DNA of 64,000 nt from Terriglobia bacterium (GTDB taxonomy: Bacteria > Acidobacteriota > Terriglobia > Bryobacterales > Bryobacteraceae): NCBI GenBank assembly GCA_021324615.1, contig JAJPIT010000062.1, positions 1-64,000 on the forward strand, given 5' to 3'. Positions 57,472 through 64,000 of this stretch are shown here, piece by piece; within the stretch, counting starts at the first letter, position 1, and each line of letters begins with the position of its first letter. Under the pieces are notes generated by a model that did no database searches, had not been told where the DNA came from, and saw only the letters and a list, made by a program, of their open reading frames with translations. The translations under genes and the position numbers were made by a program.

Positions 57472-58545
57472 TTATTTCGAGGTCAGGGCCAGAACCGCGT
57501 AGGATGTAGCGGCATCCGCCATGAAACGGCCGATATCGCTTGCCGGATCGCGCTGCTTGTTCACCGACCAGGCCGGCCAAAACCCTCCGGCCGCGTCCTG
57601 ATGGCTCGCGAGCCAAGCCAGGCCGCGTTTGAGCGACGCATCGTCGCGCCGCACGCCGGATTGCTCGAACGCATAGCTGACCAGGCCCGTCGCGTAGCCG
57701 TCGCTGCGCGTTTCCAGCGGCGTTTTGTCATTGCGCGTCCAATCGCCGATGAGAGCCGAGAGCGTCCAGCCGCCGTCGGCCTGCTGCTTGCCGCGCAACT
57801 CCGCGAGAATCGATTTCGTTTCGGCGGCGCTCAGCAGCTCCGGCATTCGCGCGGCGGCGTACAGCAGGAAAATTTTGTTGAAATCGATCTGCGAATCGCG
57901 ATTTTTTTTCAAATAATCGATCGCCAGCCGCAGTTTGTCCTGCACCTGCCGGCGGTATTCGGCCGGGGCAAAACTTGCCGCGTAAACAGCGAGCGTCGCG
58001 CCCCAATACGGCGATCTTTCGTTTTCCCACGGCGCGTTATGAAAATCGAACCACGGCCAGGACCCGTCCGGCTTTTGCAAGGACCACATATTTTCGAGCG
58101 CCAGCCGGGCGTCGGCGCCGAAGCGTCCGGCGCGGGCGTCGTAGCTGGCCAGCACCAGCGCATTCAGCACCGCCTCCACGCCGCGCGACTCGGCGGCCTT
58201 GCCGGGTCCGGATTTATCGCTGTAGAACGGCTCCATCTGGCTCCAGCCGCGAACGCGGGTGGTGATGTTGGCGATCATCTTGCGCTCCTGCTCGCCGGGC
58301 CCGGTTTCACCGAGGGCGTTCCACAGCGCCGGGCGCGCCAGCGCGTAGGGAACGGAGGTGTGGCAGGAAGTGCAGAACGTCCCGTGATCGCGCTGCGAGC
58401 GGGACCAGGTGGACCACCAATCGGCCCGGTAATCGAGATAGGCCGCCGCGGATTTGCCGCTCCAGGCCGGCGCAGCCTCGCTTGAGGAGCCGTCGGAAGC
58501 GGCAAAACACGCCGAAACCGCCAACGCAAAGAACGCCAGCCGCAT
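57472..58545 (-). CDS. Exported alpha/alpha-toroid (squalene-cyclase/prenyltransferase-like) protein with haem-c motif
   Basis: 357 aa from ATG 58545. Signal peptide (LAFFALAVSACFAAS), then a single CTSCH motif (C58, C61, H62), which is the covalent haem c attachment signature CxxCH. From about residue 110 on come repeats like QKPDGSWPWFDF, KQQADGGWTLSALIG and SHQDAAGGFWPAW, matching the QW/DGGW turns of terpenoid-cyclase and prenyltransferase toroids. No catalytic DxDD or zinc set of squalene-hopene cyclase or prenyltransferases is seen, so it is probably not a cyclase. It is convergent with the previous gene. An HpnB-like glycosyltransferase gene lies directly upstream on the same strand. 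Confidence 0.78.
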   Translation of the reverse strand: MRLAFFALAVSACFAASDGSSSEAAPAWSGKSAAAYLDYRADWWSTWSRSQRDHGTFCTSCHTSVPYALARPALWNALGETGPGEQERKMIANITTRVRGWSQMEPFYSDKSGPGKAAESRGVEAVLNALVLASYDARAGRFGADARLALENMWSLQKPDGSWPWFDFHNAPWENERSPYWGATLAVYAASFAPAEYRRQVQDKLRLAIDYLKKNRDSQIDFNKIFLLYAAARMPELLSAAETKSILAELRGKQQADGGWTLSALIGDWTRNDKTPLETRSDGYATGLVSYAFEQSGVRRDDASLKRGLAWLASHQDAAGGFWPAWSVNKQRDPASDIGRFMADAATSYAVLALTSK

Positions 58546-58552
58546 ATGCCTC

Positions 58553-58558
58553 AGTGTA
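58553..58558 (-). promoter_or_regulatory. -10-like hexamer of the toroid gene
   Basis: TACACT on the minus strand, 7 nt before the ATG at 58545. GAGG in the gap lies 3 nt from the start. Confidence 0.3.
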
Positions 58559-58616
58559 CACCCGCACCCGGCGGAGGGGATTGACGGGCGGAGGGGATTG
58601 AGTTGAAGCGCGCAAC

Positions 58617-59693
58617 CTAGATCGCGCGGCCCTTCCATCGCACCGGACGGCCGAGGAGGGCCGCGGCGGCGGAGCGGTAGACGATGGGGAGCATCAGGTA
58701 AACCGCAAGCGGCGCCTGAATCGCGCGCCACACATTCCTGTACCAGACCAGCATCGCGAGCATCGGCGCAAACCCAAAAATCCACGCGGCGGCCGATTCG
58801 TGGATCACGATCAGCCAAAGCAGCACGGGGAGCCACAAAGCCCATACCGATGCGGCCAAAAGCAGCATCGCGCCGAGGGCGAAGTTCAGCAGCAGAAACC
58901 GGCGGGCGGCCCGCCGGAAGGCCGCCTGGGGTTCACGGAAGCGCGCATGGGCCAGCATCTCCGCGCGGGCGATGCCGAAAGCCAGCCGGTGACGCCGGGC
59001 CAGCGCCGCGATCTTCAGATCGTCCACCAGGCTGTTCATCACGGCCGCATGCCCGCCCAAAAACTCATAAGCATCGCGCCGGGCAAGCAGGCATTGCCCG
59101 TTGAACGCGGCGGCCGGATCGCGGCGCGGGGCGACCGCGCTGAAAAACAGCATCTGCGCGTAGGGAAACAGAATGGTTTCGGGCCACCGCGCCAGCTCCG
59201 GGCGCGGAAGGATGGACAGGAAGGCCACCTTGCCCGCCTCCGCCGAGGCGATGGCGGATTCCAGAAAGCCGGGTGCGAAACGCAGGTCGGCGTCGGCAAA
59301 AAGGATCCAGCGCGAGGTGACCAGGCGCGCCCCGGCCAGGCATGCATTGGCCTTGCCGAGGGCGCCGCGCGGCAACGCCGGAGCCGGCAGAACTCCCGCG
59401 CCCGCCTTGCGCGCCGCTTCCGCCGTCCGGTCCGAGGAGTGATCGTCGACCACGATGACGGTATCGTGGGGCAGGCTGGAAACCGCGCGCGCGATGAAAT
59501 CCTCCTCGTCGCGGGCGGGAATCACCACCATGCAATCCGGCGCCGGCTCGCCGGGAGGCAGCGGTTGAAGCTTCGGAATCGCCCGATAACGCCTGAGAGC
59601 CAGGAGGGAAGTTCCACAGATCCCGATGCCGGCCGCCAGCGGTAACCAAAGACTAAGTGGATGGAGGCTCAACCAATTAGGTGATGATAGCAC
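58617..59693 (-). CDS. Membrane glycosyltransferase family 2 (HpnB-like)
   Basis: 358 aa from GTG 59693; a TTG a few codons later is possible. An N-terminal membrane helix (LPLAAGIGICGTSLLALRRY) and a GT2 domain with VVIPARDEEDFIARAVSSL, VIVVDDHSSDRTAE (DD), ILFADADLRFAPGF (DxD), FNGQCLLARRDAYEFLGGH and DDLKIAALARRHRL. Two to three C-terminal helices are seen (LLLNFALGAMLLLAASVW, LPVLLWLIVIHESAAAWIFG). The layout matches hopanoid-associated HpnB and crotenoid-type transferases. It is upstream of the haem-c toroid gene with 71 bp between; no other hopanoid gene is in the window. Confidence 0.85.
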   Translation of the reverse strand: MLSSPNWLSLHPLSLWLPLAAGIGICGTSLLALRRYRAIPKLQPLPPGEPAPDCMVVIPARDEEDFIARAVSSLPHDTVIVVDDHSSDRTAEAARKAGAGVLPAPALPRGALGKANACLAGARLVTSRWILFADADLRFAPGFLESAIASAEAGKVAFLSILPRPELARWPETILFPYAQMLFFSAVAPRRDPAAAFNGQCLLARRDAYEFLGGHAAVMNSLVDDLKIAALARRHRLAFGIARAEMLAHARFREPQAAFRRAARRFLLLNFALGAMLLLAASVWALWLPVLLWLIVIHESAAAWIFGFAPMLAMLVWYRNVWRAIQAPLAVYLMLPIVYRSAAAALLGRPVRWKGRAI

Positions 59694-59749
59694 GGATGGG
59701 GCGCCCGGTTTGAAATGTAAATATTAATATTATTTATCTATAAAATGTA

Positions 59750-59778
59750 TTGCATTTAGAATTTTATTTCTGTATTCT
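59750..59778 (+). promoter_or_regulatory. Promoter of the ilv operon
   Basis: TTGCAT (59750-59755), an exact 17-nt spacer, then TATTCT (59773-59778). An A/T-rich stretch with long T and A runs lies upstream (59714-59749), like an UP element. The expected start point is near 59785, just ahead of the leader peptide's GAGAG and ATG. Confidence 0.6.
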
Positions 59779-59794
59779 GAGTGGCGAGAGAACG

Positions 59795-59950
59795 ATGACC
59801 TTTTCGGAACCCAACCAGGCATTCCGGCGCCGCATCGGCCTCTCGACCGCAATTTTCCATCGCGCGCGGGCCAGCGCCCGTGGCGGGCGTGCAAGCGAAA
59901 TTCTCGGGCTCATTCTTATTATTGGGGTCGGTGTATCCGGCCCCGCCTGA
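59795..59950 (+). CDS. ilv operon leader peptide (attenuation control)
   Basis: 51 codons from ATG 59795, with GAGAG 4 nt upstream; an earlier ATG near 59750 lies in the promoter. The body is charged and Arg-rich. The last part, codons 36-47 (59900-59935), reads ILGLILIIGVGV: nine of twelve residues are Ile, Leu or Val. They use ATT, CTC, CTT, GTC and GTA rather than the ATC/CTG/GTG expected in this GC-rich genome. Rare control codons make ribosome stalling sensitive to branched-chain tRNA charging. The TGA is followed 25 nt later by the terminator's first arm. No matching protein family is expected; the peptide acts in cis. Confidence 0.8.
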   Translation: MTFSEPNQAFRRRIGLSTAIFHRARASARGGRASEILGLILIIGVGVSGPA

Positions 59951-59988
59951 ACGGCCCGATTTTAACGGAATCGTGGCCACTGGCGGGG
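59924..59988 (+). promoter_or_regulatory. ilv attenuator: pause hairpin and antiterminator elements
   Basis: Pause hairpin (1:2): GGGGTCGG at 59924-59931 with CCGGCCCC at 59937-59944, overlapping the control codons. Antiterminator (2:3): CCCCGCC at 59941-59947 is exactly complementary to GGCGGGG at 59982-59988. A nested hairpin lies inside it: GGCCCGATT at 59953-59961 with AATCG-T-GGCC at 59969-59978. The antiterminator uses GGCC (59975-59978) and G59982, both in the terminator's first arm, so the two forms exclude each other. Ribosome stalling at 59900-59935 would break 1:2 and free 2 to pair with 3. Confidence 0.7.
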
Positions 59989-60019
59989 GTGAACAAGCCT
60001 CCTACAGTGGCCTTTTTAT
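59975..60019 (+). terminator. Intrinsic terminator of the ilv attenuator
   Basis: GGCCACTG (59975-59982) pairs perfectly with CAGTGGCC (60005-60012). An inner helix GGGGG/CCTCC is possible (59985-59989 with 59998-60002). T-rich tract TTTTTATTT follows at 60013-60020. It sits directly before the ilvB ribosome-binding site, so it would stop transcription before the operon unless the antiterminator forms. Confidence 0.88.
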
Positions 60020-60031
60020 TTAGGAGAAATG

Positions 60032-61747
60032 ATGCTGAACGGCGCACAAATCGTGCTGGAATGTCTGAGGCGGGAAAAAGTCGAGTGCATTTTCGGATAT
60101 CCGGGCGGAGTGACGCTGCCGCTCTACGACGCGATGTACGACTCGCCGATCCGCCACGTGCTGGTGCGGCATGAGCAGAATGCCTGCTTTGCGGCCGAAG
60201 GATGGGCGCGCGCGACCGGGCGGGTGGGCGTGTGCTGCGCGACCTCGGGTCCGGGCGCGACCAATCTGGTCACCGGCCTGGTGGACGCGATGATGGACTC
60301 GATTCCGGTGGTGGCGATTACCGGGCAGGTGCCGACGCGGCTGATCGGCAGCGACGCCTTTCAGGAGGCGGACACCTTCGGCATCACGCGCTCCTGCACC
60401 AAACACAATTTCTTGGTGAAGACGCTGGCCGATCTGCCGCAGGCGATCCACGAAGCGTTTCACATTGCGGCGACCGGACGGCCCGGGCCGGTGCTGGTGG
60501 ATATTCCCAAGGATGTTTTCCAGGCGCGGGGCCGGTACGCTCCGGTGTCATCGATTCACCTGCCGGGGTACAAGGTTGTCACCGAAGGCCATGCCGGCCA
60601 GATCCGGCGCGCGGCGCAGATGATCTGGGAAGCGAAACGACCCTTGGTTTACGCGGGCGGCGGGATCATCGCCGCCGGCGCTTCGGAGGAGCTGCGGGCG
60701 TTTGTCGAACAGGTCGACGCGCCCGCGGTGTGCACGCTGATGGCGCTGGGCGCGCTGCCCGGCTCGCATCCGAATTTCGTGAGCATGCCGGGGATGCACG
60801 GCAGCTACGCGGCCAATATGAGCATGAGCGAGGCCGACCTGCTGATCGCGCTCGGGACGCGCTTCGATGATCGGGTGACGGGAAAACTCAGCGGCTTTGC
60901 GCCTCACGCCAAAGTGATTCATGTCGATATCGATCCGGCGGAGATCGGAAAGAATCGCGCGGCGGATCTGCCCATCGTGGGCGATGCCAAGCGCGTGCTC
61001 AGGAAGCTGAATCAGGCGCTGGCCGATTCCGCCGAGTTGAAACCGCTGAACGAAGCGGCGCGCGCGGCCTGGCGGGAACGCGTCGGGGAATGGAAACGCC
61101 GGCATCCGCTGGAGCCGGAATTTTCCAGCGAGGAGATCAAACCCCAGCACCTGATTTCCGAGATGGACCGGATTTCGGGCGGCGAGGCGATCGTGGCGAG
61201 CGACGTGGGCCAGCATCAGATGTGGGCCGCGCAGTTAATGCGCTTCAATCATCCGCGCCTGTGGATCAATTCGGGCGGGCTGGGATCGATGGGCTTCGGA
61301 CTGCCGGCGGCGATCGGCGCGCAGATGGCGCGGCCCGATGCGCTGGTGTTCGCGCTGCTGGGCGACGGCGGATTCCAGATGTCGATTCCGGAGCTGGCCA
61401 CCATCGCCAACGAGCGGCTTCCGGTGAAGATCATCGTCATGAACAACGGTCATCTGGGGATGGTCCGGCAGTGGCAGGCGCTGTTTTATCACAACCGGCT
61501 GTCGCAGGTGACGCTCGAAGGGTTTCCCGATCCGGAGAAACTGGCGGGCGCTTATGGCCTCCCCGGCCGGATGGTCGAAGCTCCGGGCGAGCTGCGGCGC
61601 GCCTTGCGGGAGTGCGTGGAGGAGCCCGGTCCGTATCTGCTGAATGTTCGCGTGTCGCCTTTTGAAAATGTGTATCCCATGGTGCCGGCCGGCGCGGCGA
61701 TCACGGAAATGGTGCTCGCCCCGCCGCAGCCGGTGGAGGCGACCTGA
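60032..61747 (+). CDS. ilvB: Acetolactate synthase, large subunit
   Basis: 571 aa from ATG 60032, chosen because AGGAG at 60022-60026 is 5 nt upstream; an ATG at 60029 is too close. It makes acetolactate from pyruvate, or acetohydroxybutyrate with 2-ketobutyrate, using ThDP, FAD and Mg2+. Seen: FGYPGGVTLPLYDAM, VRHEQNACFAAEGWAR (activating Glu), TSGPGATNLVTGL, RPGPVLVDIPKDVFQ, WINSGGLGSMGFGLPAAIGA and the ThDP loop GDGGFQMSIPELATIANERL through VMNNGHLGMVRQW. First gene of the attenuated ilv operon; ilvN follows with one base between. Confidence 0.97.
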   Translation: MLNGAQIVLECLRREKVECIFGYPGGVTLPLYDAMYDSPIRHVLVRHEQNACFAAEGWARATGRVGVCCATSGPGATNLVTGLVDAMMDSIPVVAITGQVPTRLIGSDAFQEADTFGITRSCTKHNFLVKTLADLPQAIHEAFHIAATGRPGPVLVDIPKDVFQARGRYAPVSSIHLPGYKVVTEGHAGQIRRAAQMIWEAKRPLVYAGGGIIAAGASEELRAFVEQVDAPAVCTLMALGALPGSHPNFVSMPGMHGSYAANMSMSEADLLIALGTRFDDRVTGKLSGFAPHAKVIHVDIDPAEIGKNRAADLPIVGDAKRVLRKLNQALADSAELKPLNEAARAAWRERVGEWKRRHPLEPEFSSEEIKPQHLISEMDRISGGEAIVASDVGQHQMWAAQLMRFNHPRLWINSGGLGSMGFGLPAAIGAQMARPDALVFALLGDGGFQMSIPELATIANERLPVKIIVMNNGHLGMVRQWQALFYHNRLSQVTLEGFPDPEKLAGAYGLPGRMVEAPGELRRALRECVEEPGPYLLNVRVSPFENVYPMVPAGAAITEMVLAPPQPVEAT

Positions 61748-61748
61748 G

Positions 61749-62282
61749 ATGCTGCAACTGATTTCGTTGTTGATGGAAAACAAGCCGGGCGCGTTGATGC
61801 GCGTCACCGGACTGCTGACGGCGCGCGGCTACAACATCGAAAGCCTGTCGGTGGCGCGGACGCTTGATCCGGAGCTTTCCCGGATGAGCATCGTCGTCGA
61901 GGTCGAGCCGCCGCAGCGCGCGCAGTTGATCAAGCAGATGAACAAGCTGATCAATGTGCTGCAAGCCGTGGATCTGACCGAAGCCGCGGCGGTGCGCCGC
62001 GAGCTGGCGCTGGTGCGCGTGCGGGTGAGCCGCGAAAATCGCACCGTGATCTTGAAGGAAGCGGAAATTTTCGGCGCGCGGCCGGTGGATTCCTCCCTCG
62101 ACGGGTTCGCGCTGGAGGTCACCGGCGATCCGGAAAAAATCGACGAATTTATCGCCGTCATGGGCGCTTACGGCGAAATCGAAGTGACCAGGTCGGGATT
62201 GGTGGCGGTGTCGCTGGAGGCGAAGAAGCCGCGCCTGTCGCCGCCGGTGTTGAAGGAAGAAGGAATCGCGCAGAATGCGTAG
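61749..62282 (+). CDS. ilvN: Acetolactate synthase, small (regulatory) subunit
   Basis: 177 aa from ATG 61749. It binds valine and activates the large subunit. An N-terminal ACT domain ([40 protein letters not shown]), a middle segment ([20 protein letters not shown]), and a C-terminal domain ([33 protein letters not shown]). The valine-site region [12 protein letters not shown] is intact. Adjacent to ilvB with one base between stop and start. Confidence 0.95.
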
Positions 62283-62305: not shown

Positions 62306-63328
62306 ATGGCTAGAAGATTTTACGAAAAAGACGGCGATTTATCGCTTTTAAAAGGAAAGACCATCGCGATCATCGGCTACGGCAGCCAGGGGCACGCGCA
62401 CGCGCTCAACCTGCGCGACTCCGGGCTGGAGGTCGTGGTCGGGCTGCACGCGGCCAGCGCCAGCCGGGCCAAGGCCGAATCGGCCGGTCTGCGCGTGCTT
62501 TCCACCTCCGAGGCCGCCCAAGCCGCGAGCGTGATTATGGTGGTGACGCCGGATCACGTTCAGGCCGATATCTATCACCACGACATCGCGCCACATCTGG
62601 CGGCGGGAAAAACGCTGATGTTCGCGCACGGCTTCAACATTCATTACGGGCAGATTAAACCCGCGCCGAACGTGGACGTCTCCATGATCGCGCCCAAGGC
62701 GCCGGGCCACCGGGTGCGCGAGCTGTTCAGCGAAGGCATCGGCGTGCCGGCGCTGGTCGCCGTGCATCAGAACCCGTCGGGACGCGCGCTGGAGCAGGCG
62801 CTGGCCTACGCTCTGGCGCTGGGATGCCTCAAGGCCGGCGTGATTGAGACGACCTTCAAGGAAGAAACCGAAAGCGATCTGTTCGGCGAGCAGGCGGTGC
62901 TGTGCGGCGGCGTCAGTGAGCTGATCCGCGCCGGGTTCGAGACGCTGGTCGAGGCCGGCTACGCTCCGGAGATCGCCTATTTCGAGTGTCTCCACGAATT
63001 GAAGCTGATTGTCGATCTGATTCAGGAAGGCGGGCTCGGCTACATGCGCTTTTCGGTCTCCGACACGGCCGAATATGGCGACTACACCTGCGGCAAACGG
63101 GTGGTAAACGCCCAGACCCGGCAGGAGATGAAAAAAATCCTGAGCGAAGTGCAGTCGGGCGAGTTCGCCCGCCAGTGGATCAACGAAAACAAGACCGGCG
63201 GCCCCAATTTTCTGAAGATGCGGGAAGAGGCCAAAAATCAGCCGCTCGAGCGCGTCGGCGCGGAGCTGCGGCAGATGATGTCCTTCCTGAACAGGAAGCA
63301 GGGAACGGGCATCCCGGCGGGAGCATGA
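62306..63328 (+). CDS. ilvC: Ketol-acid reductoisomerase (class I)
   Basis: 340 aa from ATG 62306, with GGGAG 7 nt upstream. It isomerises and reduces acetolactate using NAD(P)H and two Mg2+. Seen: [87 protein letters not shown] (metal Glu/Asp set), [20 protein letters not shown] and [15 protein letters not shown]. The Lys and Asp of the active site are all in place. 23 bp after ilvN. Confidence 0.97.
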
Positions 63329-63382: not shown

Positions 63383-64000
63383 ATGAAGGTTTTCACGCTC
63401 GACACGACCTTGCGCAGCGGAACCCAAGGGGAAAATGTCAGCTTTTCGACAGAGGACAAGCTGCTGATCGCGGGCAAGCTGGATGAGCTGGGCATCGATT
63501 ACGTCGAAGGCGGATGGCCCGGATCCAGCGTTCGCGATGCGGAGTTTTTCGCGGCCGCGCGCGATTTGAATCTTAAGCACGCCCGGTTGGCGGCCTTCGG
63601 CGCCCTCCGCGCGCCGGGCAAGCGCGCCGAAGACGACCCTGGTATTCAAGCCCTGCTCGCAGCGGATACGCCGGTGGTTTCGGTCTTCGGCTCAACGCTG
63701 GCCGCGGGCGGCGCAGGCGAGGAGGATAGCCTGGCCCGGATCGCCGATACCGTGCGTTATCTCAAATCGCGCGGCAAGGAGGTTATCTACGACGCCGGGC
63801 ACTTCTTCGACGGCTATGCGGCGGACCGGGAGTTCGCGCTGCGCACGCTCGAAGCCGCCAAAGACGCCGGAGCGGATCTGCTGGTGTTGTGCGACACCCA
63901 TGGCGGCACGCTCACCAGCCGTGTTGCGGCGGTCTGCGCGGAGGTGCGGCGGAGGTTCAGCGGCGTGCTGGGCATCCAGGCGCATAACGACGCCGATCTG
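63383..64000 (+). CDS. Citramalate synthase-like protein with altered metal ligands, partial at window end
   Basis: First 206 codons, running off the window; GAGGAG is 6 nt before the ATG. The family makes citramalate from pyruvate and acetyl-CoA, giving 2-ketobutyrate for isoleucine. Family features: TLDTTLRSGTQGENVSFSTE, LDELGIDYVEGGWPGSSVRD, AAFGALRAPGK, FYDAGHFFDGY-like YDAGHFFDGYAADREFAL, CDTHGGT, GIQAHNDADL. Two of the three usual metal ligands are changed: LRDG is LRSG (S12), and HxHND is QxHND (Q199, H201 kept). CDTNGG is CDTHGG. It could be inactive, or active with a different metal site. Its position as fourth gene of the ilv operon supports a BCAA role. Confidence 0.82.
   Translation, partial: MKVFTLDTTLRSGTQGENVSFSTEDKLLIAGKLDELGIDYVEGGWPGSSVRDAEFFAAARDLNLKHARLAAFGALRAPGKRAEDDPGIQALLAADTPVVSVFGSTLAAGGAGEEDSLARIADTVRYLKSRGKEVIYDAGHFFDGYAADREFALRTLEAAKDAGADLLVLCDTHGGTLTSRVAAVCAEVRRRFSGVLGIQAHNDADL

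Follow-up and report, generated by a model that had tools for sequence, protein, structure and literature searches.

A probable ribosome-mediated attenuator with an Ile/Leu/Val-rich leader peptide ahead of ilvBNC-cimA in an acidobacterium and its relatives

What controls transcription of the ilvBNC-cimA operon at this locus? The window, by which we mean the whole stretch of 64,000 nucleotides that was analysed, closes with ilvB, ilvN, ilvC and the first part of cimA, the stop codon of which lies at contig position 64960 (Table 1). All four genes exceed their NCBIfam equivalog cut-offs, and the cimA-like gene that an earlier note on this DNA had placed in the operon is confirmed as a citramalate synthase. 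The same note had described, between a promoter and ilvB, a translated leader rich in branched-chain codons, a pause hairpin, and competing antiterminator and terminator helices. Upstream of this element lies a glycosyltransferase-like ORF (named by eye) on the opposite strand. The genome holds three further ilvB-like genes, and no such leader precedes the two of these that were examined.

In the window the leader ORF reads MTFSEPNQAFRRRIGLSTAIFHRARASARGGRASEILGLILIIGVGVSGPA over its 51 codons and then stops. Nine of the twelve residues in ILGLILIIGVGV are Ile, Leu or Val, as the earlier note had read it, and SGPA follows. The 7 bp antiterminator that the note described (CCCCGCC with GGCGGGG), the 8 bp terminator with its T-run, and the promoter TTGCAT-N17-TATTCT were likewise recovered. 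The promoter scores only 8 of 12 consensus matches; a generic scan of the window missed both promoter and terminator at its thresholds (9 of 12 matches for promoters, loops of 3–8 nt for terminators). The region combines a leader ORF that is, by its sequence, rich in Ile, Leu and Val, an intrinsic terminator, and a mutually exclusive antiterminator that a ribosome at the stop codon could cover. We consider it very likely that transcription of ilvBNC-cimA is controlled here by classical ribosome-mediated attenuation.

Table 1. Positions of the element and the operon in the window
Feature	Position	Strand	Description and basis
LysR-box-like dyad	59723-59737	.	ATTAATATTATTTAT (ATWAR-N6-TWAT); conserved before promoter in family
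-35 element	59750-59755	+	TTGCAT; 88/101 family copies combine it with TANN(C/A)T over a spacer of 16-18 nt
-10 element	59773-59778	+	TATTCT; 17-nt spacer
Leader peptide ORF	59795-59950	+	ATG 59795, TGA 59948-59950, 51 codons; read from sequence
Control codons	59900-59935	+	ATT CTC GGG CTC ATT CTT ATT ATT GGG GTC GGT GTA; 9/12 I/L/V
1:2 (pause / anti-antiterminator) hairpin	59923-59945	+	59923-59931 with 59937-59945; window MFE
Antiterminator	59941-59988	+	59941-59947 with 59982-59988; fold, covariation, swap test
Terminator hairpin	59975-60012	+	GGCCACTG 59975-59982 with CAGTGGCC 60005-60012 (8 bp), inner 59985-59989 with 59998-60002; covariation, fold
Terminator T-run	60013-60021	+	TTTTTATTT; read from sequence
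ilvB, biosynthetic acetolactate synthase large subunit	60029-61747	+	TIGR00118, 790 bits, cut-off 538
ilvN, acetolactate synthase small subunit	61749-62282	+	TIGR00119, PF10369
ilvC, ketol-acid reductoisomerase	62306-63328	+	TIGR00465
cimA, citramalate synthase	63383-64000, past window end	+	TIGR00977, 593 bits, cut-off 450; PF08502

The arrangement suggests how such an attenuator would work. The predicted transcription start lies about 9 nt ahead of the ATG of the leader. With charged Ile, Leu and Val tRNAs plentiful, the leading ribosome would reach the stop codon and cover GGC CCC GCC, the last three codons, whose bases contain the 5′ strand of the antiterminator; with CCCCGCC covered, GGCGGGG would be left to the terminator and transcription would end before ilvB. 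Were Ile, Leu or Val short, the ribosome would stall in the run, usefully only if it had got no further than about codon −7 (GTC, 59927-59929). CCCCGCC would then be free to pair with GGCGGGG, a second helix would tie up the first GGCC of the terminator, and RNA polymerase, with the terminator blocked, would continue into the operon. If the leader were not translated at all, this genome's 1:2 hairpin would push the RNA towards termination. If a ribosome footprint extends some 12 nt beyond the first base of the A-site codon, a stall at codon −7 or earlier would free CCCCGCC and a stall at the GTA of codon −5 would not, so the upstream Ile/Leu/Val codons would be the sensor. From this layout we infer tRNA sensing, the stalling geometry and termination in vivo.

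Folding of the window predicts each of the competing structures. The starved state (59936-59990) folds to the antiterminator at −29.9 kcal/mol, the state with a ribosome on the stop codon (59962-60012) folds to the terminator at −27.8 kcal/mol, and the ribosome-free RNA (59897-60012) folds to the 1:2 hairpin plus terminator at −56.5 kcal/mol; the z-score of the window fold is −2.7. Across the family, the terminator is in the minimum free energy (MFE) structure of 99 of 101 copies with a ribosome on the stop; if arm 4 is left out, 100 of 101 have the 2:3 helix in theirs. In ribosome-free folds the terminator is in the MFE structure of only 72 of 101, and it is absent when the window is folded from 59936. 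Folding also places an inner helix in the antiterminator (59953-59963 with 59967-59978), for which family support is modest (58% paired). The pause hairpin of the earlier note fared less evenly: it is predicted in the window, and its conservation in the family is weak, with 68% pairing, no clear excess of covariation, and presence in 79 of 101 copies against 1409 of 2020 codon-shuffled ones. It was dropped as a conserved part on account of this pairing and contrast. An alternative hairpin at the leader stop (59939-59942 with 59953-59956) found no support.

To follow the element through the family, IlvB was matched in 110 of 121 of its genomes at E ≤ 1e-150, and 107 loci were assembled (L001, the window copy; L004-L035; L113-L186). 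L033-L035 are named contigs and the other loci come from the 110 matched genomes, six of which were left out: G003, G038, G059, G072 and G073, with incomplete ilvB matches, plus G061. L033 comes without upstream DNA, so 106 upstream regions were scanned, and 101 of these hold a leader candidate. In each, the leader stop was picked by a score that favours Ile/Leu/Val content and a PA ending, with three set by hand; some doubt attaches to the stops picked in L014, L016, L147 and L185. Five regions (L025, L034, L121, L123, L129) have neither a leader nor a match to the RNA model R1 upstream of ilvB, which may reflect loss, a move, divergence or an assembly fault. An ORF scan blind to the peptide end asked for at least 8 Ile/Leu/Val among 12 consecutive residues; 77 of the 106 regions passed, compared with 9 among 2120 dinucleotide shuffles and 1 among the 106 reverse strands. 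Beyond the family set, the ORF scan excluded nine loci in which no start motif could be located (L233, L234, L236-L242) and L299, which is too short.

The usual family leader is 15–51 residues long and ends Ile-Ile-x-Val-Ile-Val-Ala-Gly-Pro-Ala-stop. Ile, Leu or Val occupies codon −9 in 87, codon −7 in 90 and codon −5 in 88 of the 101 leaders. Ala stands at codon −1 in 95 and Pro at codon −2 in 85, frequencies biased toward PA because the choice of stop scored a PA ending and five loci were set aside by inspection. Between codons −15 and −4, the share of T is 65% at second codon positions, 4% at first ones and 26% at third ones, a coding signature; leader substitutions sorted by codon position gave no informative pattern. 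The same-genus copies L004, L006 and L008 have an N-terminal PNQA and the Ile/Leu/Val run in common with the window leader. The run and the hairpins, for which the earlier note had proposed an alignment of relatives, prove conserved (the pause hairpin only weakly), and the terminator and antiterminator covary. Judged by these sequences, the leader element is old within the family.

The earlier note had further held that the control codons are A/T-ending ones disfavoured in this genome and that this looks adaptive. The preference stands. In the run of the window copy, 6 of the 9 Ile/Leu/Val codons end in A or T; in the operon behind it the figure is 45 of 373, and GTA accounts there for 1 of 130 Val codons. 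At family leader positions −4 to −15 it is 483 of 777, compared with 792 of 4241 in the fetched parts of the ilvB genes of the same genomes. The adaptive part does not follow from these counts. One tRNA reads both ATT and ATC. Codon −5 is GTA in 74 of 101 family leaders, although GTA makes up 8% of the Val codons of those ilvB genes; by the footprint, a stall at this codon should not antiterminate.

Covariation was assessed in alignment A1, of 100 sequences (the 101 leader loci minus L147), against shuffle and permutation controls that leave shared ancestry in. In the terminator 91.4% of cells are paired and 85 cells carry double changes, against 27.8 in shuffles and 1–21 in slid versions; pair types show no excess (15 against 14.4 in shuffles). 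The antiterminator is paired in 87.8% of cells, compared with 41–66% when slid. Its double changes fall in 5 of 7 pairs and number 20 cells, against 8.9 in shuffles, none of 500 of which reached as high. Slid partners can carry comparable numbers (25 double-change cells at 58% pairing for slide −3, 17 at 66% for +1), so the case is less clear here: against them the antiterminator stands out by pairing, not by its double-change count. When leader ends were exchanged among loci, leader end and own arm paired at −18.54 kcal/mol, against −17.10 ± 0.18 for permuted sets, and none of 20000 permutations was as good. Of 39 non-consensus leader ends, 18 pair more stably with their own arm than in either exchange, and 21 do not; altered yet matching antiterminator strands occur in L006, L118, L171 and L185.

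One base is common to both helices. The combination C-G-C is found in 49 and T-A-T in 13 of 100 sequences, and both partners are paired in 79; for the leader-arm pair, 83 of 100 are paired, against a shuffle mean of 75.7 and maximum of 84. The three positions lie in the last Ala codon (its third base), the 5′ arm of the terminator and the 3′ arm of the terminator; they tend to change together, as expected for one base with two alternative partners. Sequence and alignments document the anatomy, conservation and covariation of the element. R1, built from the family, has a sole strong match in the genome of the window (E 3.8e-22); the next, at E 0.0019, covers the hairpin part only.

These results bear on two other ways of reading the region. 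It could hold a plain terminator, with a leader ORF that is incidental or serves translation reinitiation only. Reinitiation at short leaders near genes has been proposed for bacteria including Acidobacteria, in passages of PMC4833913 that place the peak of distances near 10–13 bp, whereas 78 nt separate the leader stop from ilvB in the window. The last leader codons, moreover, covary with the terminator arm, and the Ile/Leu/Val run fits the pathway of the operon; we regard this reading as very improbable. Control by a riboswitch (such as one for ppGpp) or a T-box in place of a translated leader would have some precedent, since ppGpp riboswitches are described at ilvB genes of some bacteria in parts of PMC10272879. 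An Rfam search of window positions 58000-62000 returned no match up to E 1, none of 12 related loci had a match at the gathering score, and leader codons −15 to −4 carry the coding signature described above, which together make this the least probable of the readings. Attenuation of the whole operon, cimA included, as the earlier note had proposed, remains the best-supported account: the run and hairpins are conserved and the operon genes match the pathway.

The family promoter follows the consensus TTGCAT-N17-TANNCT, and the pattern in Table 1 (87 copies plus one variant) occurs in 12 of 2000 shuffles. Six to 8 nt past the −10 element, NTG codons number 42 in the leader frame against 1 in the other two frames. 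For the 88 copies with the promoter, the first open in-frame start lies 5–8 nt past the −10 element in 41, 4 nt past it in 1 (L118), 9–12 nt in 10, 13–20 nt in 32 and further in 3, with none in 1. With a start at 5–8 nt, the leader mRNA is probably leaderless in those 41. According to PMC3160421, leaderless genes are predicted at an average of 13.3% in 3 Acidobacteria genomes. In the window copy the start lies 16 nt past the −10 element, with a predicted 5′UTR of about 9 nt. A promoter downstream of position 60020 that bypasses the terminator, which the earlier note had named as an objection, has no room in the 7 nt between the end of the T-run at 60021 and ilvB at 60029; one inside ilvB is conceivable.

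A further possibility, compatible with attenuation, is a two-tier arrangement, with ilvB transcription governed by a LysR-type regulator bound to the upstream dyad and the attenuator left only to fine-tune it. The centre of the dyad lies about 56 nt ahead of the predicted start of transcription in the window; in the family it reads CATWAA-N5-TTWATG and lies at −28 to −12 relative to the −35 hexamer. Its T-N11-A spacing is that of LysR boxes. It is kept before the promoter, with the strict core in 52 of 101 ilvB upstreams against 9 of 2020 shuffles, and the core recurs in 17 of 30 leuA upstream regions of 170 nt against 17 of 1500 shuffles. A LysR relative diverges from leuA in 24 of 30 loci, and a relaxed form of the dyad usually lies near the start of this gene, although some loci stop at contig ends. 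When TTGC at the ilvB spacing is also required, 12 genomes give 11 matches, 8 of them at the ilvB promoters; the reversed control gives 3. Against this, 6 of the 17 leuA matches sit in a different conserved element of the leuA upstreams, ATAAATTTG, which reduces the count to 11 of 30; without TTGC the dyad is rarer than its reversed control on both strands of 16 genomes (38 against 89), and it was rejected as a regulon marker by itself with genome-wide matches below that control. An AT-rich UP element could account for part of its conservation. The same dyad also stands, in the genome of the window, between genes resembling (by eye) LysR and glutamate synthase (L364, G000:C79:56542-56558), so it names no one regulator. 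We entertain the two-tier arrangement only tentatively.

At leuA itself, the genome of the window has a similar dyad, ATAAAAACAGATTAT, between leuA and a divergent LysR gene (L325/L326). In leuA upstreams such as L328, L332 and L335, a second conserved element, TATAAATTTG..AAAT, is followed by a −10-like ATAAT.

Elsewhere in the phylum, the Ile/Leu/Val threshold is passed by 8 of 78 further Acidobacteriota upstream regions, compared with 3 among 1560 shuffles and 1 among the 78 reverse strands. In family f2, of the same class, none of 20 genomes passes and one reaches 7; several genes upstream of ilvB there end, by eye, like IlvD. The ORF scan of seven f48 upstreams found no leader. Stems that resemble terminators and are 8 bp or longer lie in the last 190 nt before ilvB in 11 of 12 regions, these being the 8 that pass plus 4 weaker ones chosen by eye; in shuffles, stems of at least 7 bp occur in 10 of 240. 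Across the phylum as a whole, R1 finds 64 of 396 genomes at E ≤ 0.01, many matches being GC-rich hairpins only. Among 22 matches examined, 8 have an ORF with an Ile/Leu/Val-rich tail, and six of these (L197, L198, L199, L201, L203, L209) precede ilvB, ilvN or a pheA-like gene; the other two, L205 and L215, precede none of these. L216, upstream of an ilvD-like gene, was rejected, its ORF being unconvincing as an Ile/Leu/Val leader. In L197 and L209 the leaders lie directly ahead of ilvB. L198, whose leader ends in GVIIVVNVGILTGVSRFG-stop, and L199 have Ile/Leu/Val-rich leaders before ilvN in an ilvN-ilvB order, and L201 and L203 have a Val-rich leader ending in RPTG-stop before a prephenate-dehydratase-like gene (ilvN and pheA being named by eye), with ilvB behind it in L201, where by eye a 12 bp antiterminator takes in the leader stop codon. 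Leaders of the same design and unlike sequence appear to precede ilvB, ilvN or pheA in some other families, whether homologous or convergent.

The attenuators of Escherichia coli ilvGMEDA and ilvBN use the same logic for the same amino acids. We liken them by description; their operons are ordered otherwise, and cimA is included only here. The closest known system is the Corynebacterium glutamicum ilvBNC attenuator (the ilvB-II motif), for which PMC11857589 and PMC10272879 describe an Ile/Leu/Val leader, terminator and antiterminator like those of the window, and an anti-antiterminator whose counterpart in the window is a predicted one. PMC11857589 places the start of that transcript one nucleotide from the leader start codon, a leaderless spacing that many window relatives resemble and the window copy, with its 5′UTR of about 9 nt, does not. 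Its control codons are named as CUU and GUA, and its leader is given as 15 residues, against a preference for GTA and 15–51 residues here. Unlike C. glutamicum, the family belongs to another phylum, has no Rfam match, and has a conserved GPA-stop end and a TTGCAT promoter. PMC10272879 also mentions the E. coli ilv attenuators and describes the ilvB-OMG and Leptospira ilvB RNA motifs, which hold branched-chain-rich uORFs before ilvB with attenuation proposed; these uORFs are also Thr-rich, unlike the leaders here. It gives the distribution of ilvB-OMG as ‘various bacterial phyla’, and its main text does not contain ‘acidobacter’. According to a 2010 survey (PMC2965389), a function is associated with almost none of the attenuators predicted for phyla like Acidobacteria. 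We found no earlier description in this phylum in the literature on ilvB or Acidobacteria attenuation, though a wide attenuation survey (Lopatovskaya et al. 2010, listed in PMC4833913) may predict it.

Attenuation itself is textbook, from enterics and Actinobacteria. What is gained is that one class of Acidobacteria attenuators acquires a proposed function, a covarying structure model and a search model. The final leader codons encode peptide and antiterminator strand at once, a good case of co-evolution between codons and RNA, and the leaderless start, as predicted, would make it possible to ask cleanly whether leaderless initiation can drive attenuation outside Corynebacterium. It is conceivable, if some way short of probable, that many Acidobacteriota combine a LysR-type protein shared with leuA and an attenuator whose leader is often leaderless, the logic being kept across families while sequences turn over. 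If so, leaderless reading of the leader would allow sensing without a Shine-Dalgarno site.
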